DNA of 64,000 nucleotides from Allocoleopsis franciscana PCC 7113. Its GTDB lineage: Bacteria > Cyanobacteriota > Cyanobacteriia > Cyanobacteriales > Coleofasciculaceae. The stretch lies in contig NC_019738.1 of assembly GCF_000317515.1 (NCBI RefSeq), positions 6,846,001-6,910,000 on the forward strand, written 5' to 3'. The translations under genes were made by a program, and so were the position numbers. The notes under the pieces were generated by a model that was not told where the DNA came from, did not search any database, and saw only the letters and a program-made list of their open reading frames with translations. Shown here piece after piece: positions 44,064-44,210 of the stretch. How positions within the stretch are numbered: the stretch's first letter is position 1; every line of letters starts with the position of its first letter.

Positions 44064-44135
44064 GGCGGCATAGCCAAGTGGTAAGGCAGAGGTCTGCAAA
44101 ACCTCCATCCCCCAGTTCAAATCTGGGTGCCGCCT
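44064..44135 (+). tRNA. tRNA-Cys (anticodon GCA)
   Basis: A 72-nt cloverleaf: acceptor GGCGGCA pairs with TGCCGCC; the D arm has GCC-GGC around AAGTGGTAA; the anticodon arm GAGGT-CTGCAAA-ACCTC carries GCA; the T arm CCCAG-TTCAAAT-CTGGG is intact. The discriminator base is T, and CCA is not encoded. The Tn7-like transposon end begins only 6 bases after it, so the gene is preserved but its terminator region has been replaced by transposon DNA. Confidence 0.97.
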
Positions 44136-44141
44136 TTTTGT

Positions 44142-44210
44142 TGTACATTTGTCCATTAAAGAGTTATTTGTCAGTTTTAAAGACTTAATGTCCAAAACTG
44201 CGAGTTTTGG
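44142..44210 (+). repeat. tRNA-side transposon end with TnsB-type binding repeats
   Basis: Starts TGTACA, the tip seen in V-K elements, followed by TTTGTCCATTAA, GAGTTATTTGTCAGTTTTAA and GACTTAATGTCC in series. These are repeated (T)TGTC...TTAA units. The order and spacing match the other end (57971-58035) read in reverse. A small perfect hairpin CCAAAACT-GCG-AGTTTTGG follows at 44192-44210. Confidence 0.85.

Follow-up and report, generated by a model that had tools for sequence, protein, structure and literature searches.

Why a Tn7-like transposon that carries no visible guide should stand directly behind a tRNA gene is the question raised by a 64-kb stretch of the Allocoleopsis franciscana PCC 7113 genome (NC_019738.1, 6,846,001-6,910,000, forward strand), referred to here as the window. 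Cyanobacterial CRISPR-associated transposons (CASTs) have been described in which a 17-nt anchor spacer pairs next to a GTN PAM at 46-82 nt from the left end, with one case at 147 nt, and in the type V-K layout the tRNA attachment gene points at the Cas12k-side end while tnsB lies at the other end (PMC9938897). The attachment sites of V-K elements are mostly tRNA genes and may differ between close relatives (PMC11406308). The element in the window very probably descends from a type V-K CAST that entered the tRNA-Cys site by RNA-guided homing and later lost its guiding half, so that it would sit behind tRNA-Cys because a CRISPR guide once steered it there. This kind of element is already known, and the present one is an unusually clear example; what is new is the recovery of a lost guide from a sister element and a site that likely has two layers.

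The attachment gene is the only tRNA gene that ARAGORN finds in the 64-kb window, and the left tip of the element lies 14 bp behind it. The site and the ends of the element comprise the following features:

44064..44135, + strand: tRNA-Cys (anticodon GCA), the attachment gene (ARAGORN; Rfam RF00005, 66.4 bits)
44145..44149, + strand: left copy of the target site duplication ACATT
44150..44251, + strand: left end, with tip TGTCCATTAAAGAG and TnsB-type repeats (aligned with the left ends of G262, G196 and G133)
44150..58027, - strand: whole transposon, 13,878 bp, Cas12k-side end at the tRNA and tnsB at the far end (blastn to G133, tips, duplication)
57990..58027, - strand: right end, with tip TGTCCATTAACGAG on the reverse strand (G133 homology, tips, duplication)
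58028..58032, + strand: right copy of the target site duplication ACATT

In a blastn comparison with the closest relative, an element of the same genus (G133), homology begins at 44150 and stops at 58028; TGTCCATTAA is read at both tips, and a perfect 5-bp ACATT duplication lies immediately outside each. Together these observations place the element at 44150-58027. The tip TGTCCATTAAAG is common to the aligned left ends of G262, G196 and G133, the last of which has the same kind of tip with a target duplication of its own (AAAGA). Two features of V-K elements are thus present, namely TGT-type inverted tips with a 5-bp target duplication, and a tRNA attachment gene that points at the Cas12k-side end with tnsB opposite. 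The initial annotation of this locus had rightly placed a tRNA-Cys(gca) gene just ahead of a transposon end; it had taken a TGTACA at 44142 for the tip, which is 8 bp too far out for the present element.

The transposition genes lie at the far end in the order TnsB-TnsC-TniQ and are preserved together with part of the cargo:

47923..49494, - strand: cargo, Schlafen/AlbA_2 protein (Pfam; 83% DNA identity to the G133 element)
51377..53639, - strand: cargo, type I restriction genes, HsdS at 51377-52783 and a C-terminal fragment of HsdR at 52797-53639 (Pfam)
54320..54883, - strand: tniQ, V-K type, 187 aa (PADLOC TniQ_V, 189 bits; ShTniQ, E 5e-52)
54926..55897, - strand: tnsC, V-K type, with degenerate Walker A and B motifs (PADLOC, 97 bits; ShTnsC, E 4e-21; alignment)
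55904..57805, - strand: tnsB transposase, 633 aa (PADLOC TnsB V-K, 452 bits; ShTnsB, E 2e-101)

PADLOC assigns all three transposition proteins to the V-K lineage, and their best PDB matches are ShCAST chains, which bears out the earlier recognition of a Tn7-like transposon behind tRNA-Cys. No model for TnsA matched among the ten proteins scanned with Pfam. The gene order and the cargo with type I restriction genes resemble those of cyanobacterial CASTs, as do the position of the Cas12k-side end behind a tRNA gene pointing at it, the GTN PAM, the 17-nt protospacer and the 5-bp duplication; unlike the cyanobacterial CASTs described, the window lacks Cas12k, an array and an anchor spacer, the tips are TGTCCA, and TnsC is without canonical Walker motifs (PMC9938897). 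In an alignment of V-K TnsC proteins, the Walker A GKT and the acidic pair of Walker B are absent from those of the window (54926-55897), G133, G295, G262, G360 and G111 (L038, L040, L044, L045 and L046), and GESRTGKT and DEAD-like motifs are kept in most of the others; that some V-K TnsC proteins lack canonical Walker motifs has already been stated (PMC11406308).

The half of the element that should hold Cas12k and the CRISPR segment is occupied by an insertion sequence and by remnants of genes known from the G133 element:

44254..45405, + strand: insertion sequence (DDE_Tnp_4), where Cas12k and CRISPR should be (10 near-identical copies in the genome)
45408..45692, + strand: C-terminal part of a cargo gene that we take to be of DUF262 type, inverted in comparison with the gene order of G133 (tblastn, 51% over 101 aa from 45390)
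45757..45879, + strand: fragment of a small regulator-like gene, which in G133 is found in divergent orientation on the cas12k side (tblastn, 85% over 41 aa)

No Cas12k was found in the window by tblastn with four Cas12k queries, and no CRISPR family matched there. In G133, Cas12k is encoded at L039:6785-8971 (NCBIfam V_Cas12k, 649 bits) and the guide is located between Cas12k and the left end; blastn finds no counterpart in the window for the G133 stretch L039:3653-9957. As had been noted earlier, no guide is now visible: a spacer for tRNA-Cys was found neither in the window nor in the rest of the genome, the only match without mismatches being the tRNA itself and the 13 further matches at three mismatches comparing with 12 in a reversed control. 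The two Cas12k matches of this genome belong to elements at tRNA-Val and tRNA-Pro, whose guides match their own sites. The sequence shows that Cas12k is absent, and the absence is read as a secondary loss; what is claimed for the element is therefore decayed descent from a V-K CAST and not a functioning system.

The guide that is missing here survives in relatives. An element of G262, which belongs to another genus of the same family, stands behind the same tRNA-Cys, its tip and left end are of the type seen in the window, and it carries the 17-nt spacer AGGCAGAGGTCTGCAAA behind the truncated repeat GGGGAGGGTTGAAAG, with a GTA PAM and 67 bp to the tip. This spacer is identical at all 17 positions to the tRNA-Cys sequence in the window, which defines the probable target of the present element:

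44081..44083, + strand: GTA, in the GGTA of the D-loop, candidate PAM of the present element (slot used as PAM by the guides of G262 and G267; tip 66 bp away)
44084..44100, + strand: anchor protospacer AGGCAGAGGTCTGCAAA (all 17 positions shared with the homing spacer in G262, L090)

A GTN PAM and a protospacer at the usual distance from the tip (GTA, 66 bp; 46-87 bp in the survey below), a further V-K feature, are thus present. The G262 element (L090 and L044) keeps Cas12k, unlike the window; this one Cas12k lies in two halves on contigs C805 and C871, which would form a single element in an assembly that is fragmented and 67% complete. Its TniQ, on C871, is 90% identical to that of the window, but the adjoining TnsB and TnsC are only ~39-43% identical, a mismatch that, judged from these identities, may reflect module exchange inside V-K elements. 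In the more distant G267 (L054), a Cas12k element also begins 14 bp behind tRNA-Cys, and its spacer AGGCCGTGGATTGCAAA matches the tRNA-Cys of that genome with a GTA PAM in the same slot and 66 bp to the tip.

These findings sustain the central proposal of the initial annotation, that a Cas12k guide led the element to tRNA-Cys and has since been lost, since a guide with 17/17 identity survives in G262 at the same tRNA-Cys and the closest transposase relative, G133, keeps Cas12k and a guide for a site of its own. Other elements behind tRNA-Cys, for which a search had been suggested, were found in G262, G267, G196, G215 and G035. A GTN PAM and protospacer inside the tRNA were correctly foreseen, in another register: GTG with a protospacer from 44081 onwards had been named instead of GTA 44081-44083 with 44084-44100. 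The spacing does fall in the usual range, but a GTN trinucleotide 60-66 bp upstream is met by 32% of window positions and TGTACA occurs 10 times in the window, so that the 61-bp distance alone is a weak argument, and the case for homing rests on the guide in the sister element, not on distance.

The generality of such guides was gauged among Cas12k loci of the order, where a search that scored at most three candidates per genome gave a Cas12k match in 108 of 388 genomes. From among the matches listed, 100, mostly reaching the C-terminus, were combined with six loci from earlier searches to give 106 loci, at least a dozen C-terminal fragments and matches stopping short of the C-terminus being left out. 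A guide matched the flank exactly in 43 of the 106, with at most one mismatch in 70 and with at most two in 79; reversed spacers and complement-only spacers, used as controls, both gave 0 at up to two mismatches. The PAMs of the 70 loci with at most one mismatch were GTA (43), GTT (17), GTG (7) and GTC (3), and three of these loci target tRNA-Cys (G262:C805, G267:C316 and G267:C169). The distance from PAM to tip was 46-87 bp in 74 loci and 60-66 bp in 40 of them; five of the 79 loci, in which no left-end pattern scored, are dropped from these counts and from the counts of tip stubs below, one of them, G262:C695, having a doubled tip itself. The survey also contained V-K elements (L104, L107 and L123) with a common spacer like ATGGGGCARATTGAGAA, whose target overlaps no tRNA called by ARAGORN and is possibly the 3' end of a protein gene.

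Three features at the junctions bear on what may have stood at the site before the present element arrived:

44078..44097, + strand: register of the initial annotation, GTG slot at 44078-44080 and GTAAGGCAGAGGTCTGC at 44081-44097 (register of the G035 guide, decayed in G215)
44142..44149, + strand: TGTACATT, probable left-tip stub (TGT) of an older V-K element, plus the target duplication (ACATT) (joined flanks; G220 structure)
58033..58038, + strand: AAATAA, continuation of the probable older left tip

When the flanks of the element are joined across the duplication, they read TGTACATTAAATAA, identical to the opening 14 bp of three V-K left ends in the survey; across 2 x 64 kb of the window, a surveyed end is matched for 14 bp at no position that is uninterrupted. 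The match of the joined flanks to V-K left ends suggests that the TGTACA at 44142 is probably the tip of an older V-K element and that the present one inserted 3 bp inside it. The older register has counterparts as well: a V-K element at the tRNA-Cys of G035 (L197) carries the guide GTAAGGCAGAGGTCTGC, although in its own tRNA-Cys the PAM slot reads GCG, and in G215 (L092) the slot is GTG and the GTAAGGCAGAGGTCTGC spacer is present in a decayed version. In both genomes the tip is TGTACA, at 60 bp from the slot, the equivalent distance in the window being 61 bp, and the geometry first proposed for this locus therefore probably fits an older occupant of the tRNA-Cys site. The letters were correctly read, TGTACA at 44142-44147 and GTG at 44078-44080 standing 61 bp apart, and it is the role of present tip and PAM that falls away.

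Stubs of this kind recur elsewhere. TGTAC or TGTCC lies at most 20 bp outside the true tip in 13 of the 74 loci, against a mean of 2.8 (maximum 10) in 2,000 shuffles that kept base composition only, and 2 for the reversed pattern. The whole case is seen in G220, where the TGTACATT stub stands outside the left tip and, beyond the right tip, ACATT precedes the remainder of an older left end. Among eight right ends examined, the full nested pattern was seen in G220 only; in G329 the right end is immediately followed by a left end, but the expected duplication is missing, and the expected continuation of the older end was not found in the other six. On balance it seems somewhat probable that the history of successive RNA-guided insertions at one site can be read from tip stubs outside V-K elements, and that here an element of the GTA register entered an older V-K element, probably of the GTG register, 3 bp inside the tip of the latter, whose body was then lost. 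The nesting of tips suggests that related V-K elements are not kept by target immunity from piling into one site.

The events at the locus can be pictured with the roles that TniQ, TnsC and TnsB have in ShCAST. A truncated-repeat guide with AGGCAGAGGTCTGCAAA, presumably the one used by this copy, would have brought Cas12k to tRNA-Cys at PAM GTA 44081-44083 and protospacer 44084-44100. TniQ and TnsC would then have bridged to TnsB, which would have placed the element at a point 66 bp downstream of the PAM, oriented as is usual with the Cas12k-side end towards the tRNA, and generated the ACATT duplication. The landing point would have been 3 bp inside an older V-K end already present at the attachment site, which would account for the TGT and duplicated ACATT still standing outside the new element if the stub is the old tip. 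Cas12k, the tracrRNA and the CRISPR segment would have been deleted later in the most plausible order of events, and an active insertion sequence, which may have caused that deletion, is now in their place.

Other accounts of the locus fare less well. It is very unlikely that the present tip is the TGTACA at 44142, guided by GTG 44078-44080 and a protospacer from 44081 onwards; TGTACA is more frequent than any other V-K tip (45 of 75 rows), and the G035 guide and the decayed G215 guide share that register with tips 60 bp from the slot, but the limits of homology to G133 at 44150 and 58028, the 5-bp duplication, which fits 44150/58027 and not 44142, and the TGTCCATTAAAG tip held in common by G262, G196 and G133 all contradict it. 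A guide hidden elsewhere in the same genome is rejected on the result of the genome spacer search. Tn7-like elements whose TnsD recognises a tRNA do exist (PMC11406308), and an element with TniQ and without Cas12k might be expected to use protein guidance of the type I-B2 or I-D kind; yet the TniQ of the window is short (187 aa) and best matches the V-K model and ShTniQ, the Pfam scan of ten proteins revealed no second TniQ or TnsD, no long TniQ/TnsD with a DNA-binding C-terminus, a trait of types I-B2 and I-D, was found among the open reading frames scanned, and the sister elements carry guides, all of which makes recognition of the tRNA by a protein hardly credible.

It is improbable that the element had already lost Cas12k when it moved and that a second V-K element supplied Cas12k and guide in trans. 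The genome has two other Cas12k genes, and V-K ends are stacked at shared sites, but the guides of the other two elements match tRNA-Val and tRNA-Pro, none for tRNA-Cys was found in the genome, and the DUF262 and regulator-like relics show that the cas12k side was once present. Chance, in the form of an untargeted insertion that happened to land 14 bp behind a tRNA gene, can almost be dismissed: the required GTN at 60-66 bp is common, but G262 and G267 have the same gene, near-identical spacing and the same orientation, each with a matching guide of its own, the window has a single tRNA gene in its 64 kb, and 70 of the 106 surveyed loci have a matching guide. Against RNA-guided homing of a V-K CAST stand the lack of guide and Cas12k in the window element, the origin of the exact guide in another genus, in an incomplete assembly and beside a TnsB and TnsC of low identity to those of the window, the homing of the closest TnsB relative on the SRP RNA gene and the failure to find an intact empty site among the genomes searched.

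Since the 17-nt guide survives in a sister copy, a transposon that has lost its own can thus be traced to the sequence that very likely directed its insertion, and homing sites outlive the machinery that chose them. If this reading is true, an intact copy at the ACATT junction is expected to carry AGGCAGAGGTCTGCAAA behind a GTTGAAAG repeat. The G133 relative (L038 and L039), with TnsB 91%, TnsC 93% and TniQ 90% identical, resembles the window element in tips, genus and cargo types (restriction, Schlafen/AlbA_2) but is complete, retaining Cas12k and having a guide directed at the SRP RNA gene with 71 bp from PAM to tip; the difference in attachment site between the two is an example of the variation stated for close relatives (PMC11406308). 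Guide-directed homing to the SRP RNA gene, as in G133 and G262:C695, is also known from the type I-F3b CASTs at ffs, which are Cascade-based and related to the window element only as Tn7-like machinery (PMC11406308). The two relatives that home on the SRP RNA gene (RF00169), G133:C27 (L039:10060-10156) and G262:C695 (L178:1578-1674), have TGTCCA tips and the guide GCAGCAATACGGGATGC; no published report of V-K elements at SRP RNA was found in the literature searched.

The neighbourhood of tRNA-Cys was also compared within the family. An empty-site query matched in all 20 family genomes searched, that of the window included, and no intact empty site was found. In the ~110 bp behind tRNA-Cys, read by eye in the 19 other genomes, clear V-K ends stand in G262, G196 and G215 and end-like repeats in G133 and G185, and no V-K end was recognised in the remaining 14. 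The G196 end is a relic, followed within 500 bp by another gene, which we take to be that of argininosuccinate synthase, and no Cas12k was found in the stretch searched; in G215, whose genome gave no Cas12k match, the V-K end is accompanied by a V-K-like TniQ fragment and the decayed guide. Behind the tRNA-Cys of G133 lie a hairpin that is almost perfect (GTAGAGGGACAAAT...ATTTGTCCCTCTAC) and repeats resembling Tn7-type ends (L089:6300-6370), perhaps a further relic at the site. To the right of the element, a gene at 58073-59125, presumably pyrC, is 93% identical in G014 and was not found by DNA similarity in G133, G262, G196 or G215, so that replacement or acquisition of a segment may account for the right flank. 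A contig scan with TnsB alone gave 23 pattern matches, none confirmed. Two V-K ends stand head to head in G262:C514 (L043:2590-2640) with 2 bp between them (TGGACA GG TGTCCA), and the TnsB fragment that adjoins them is 86% identical to the TnsB of the window.
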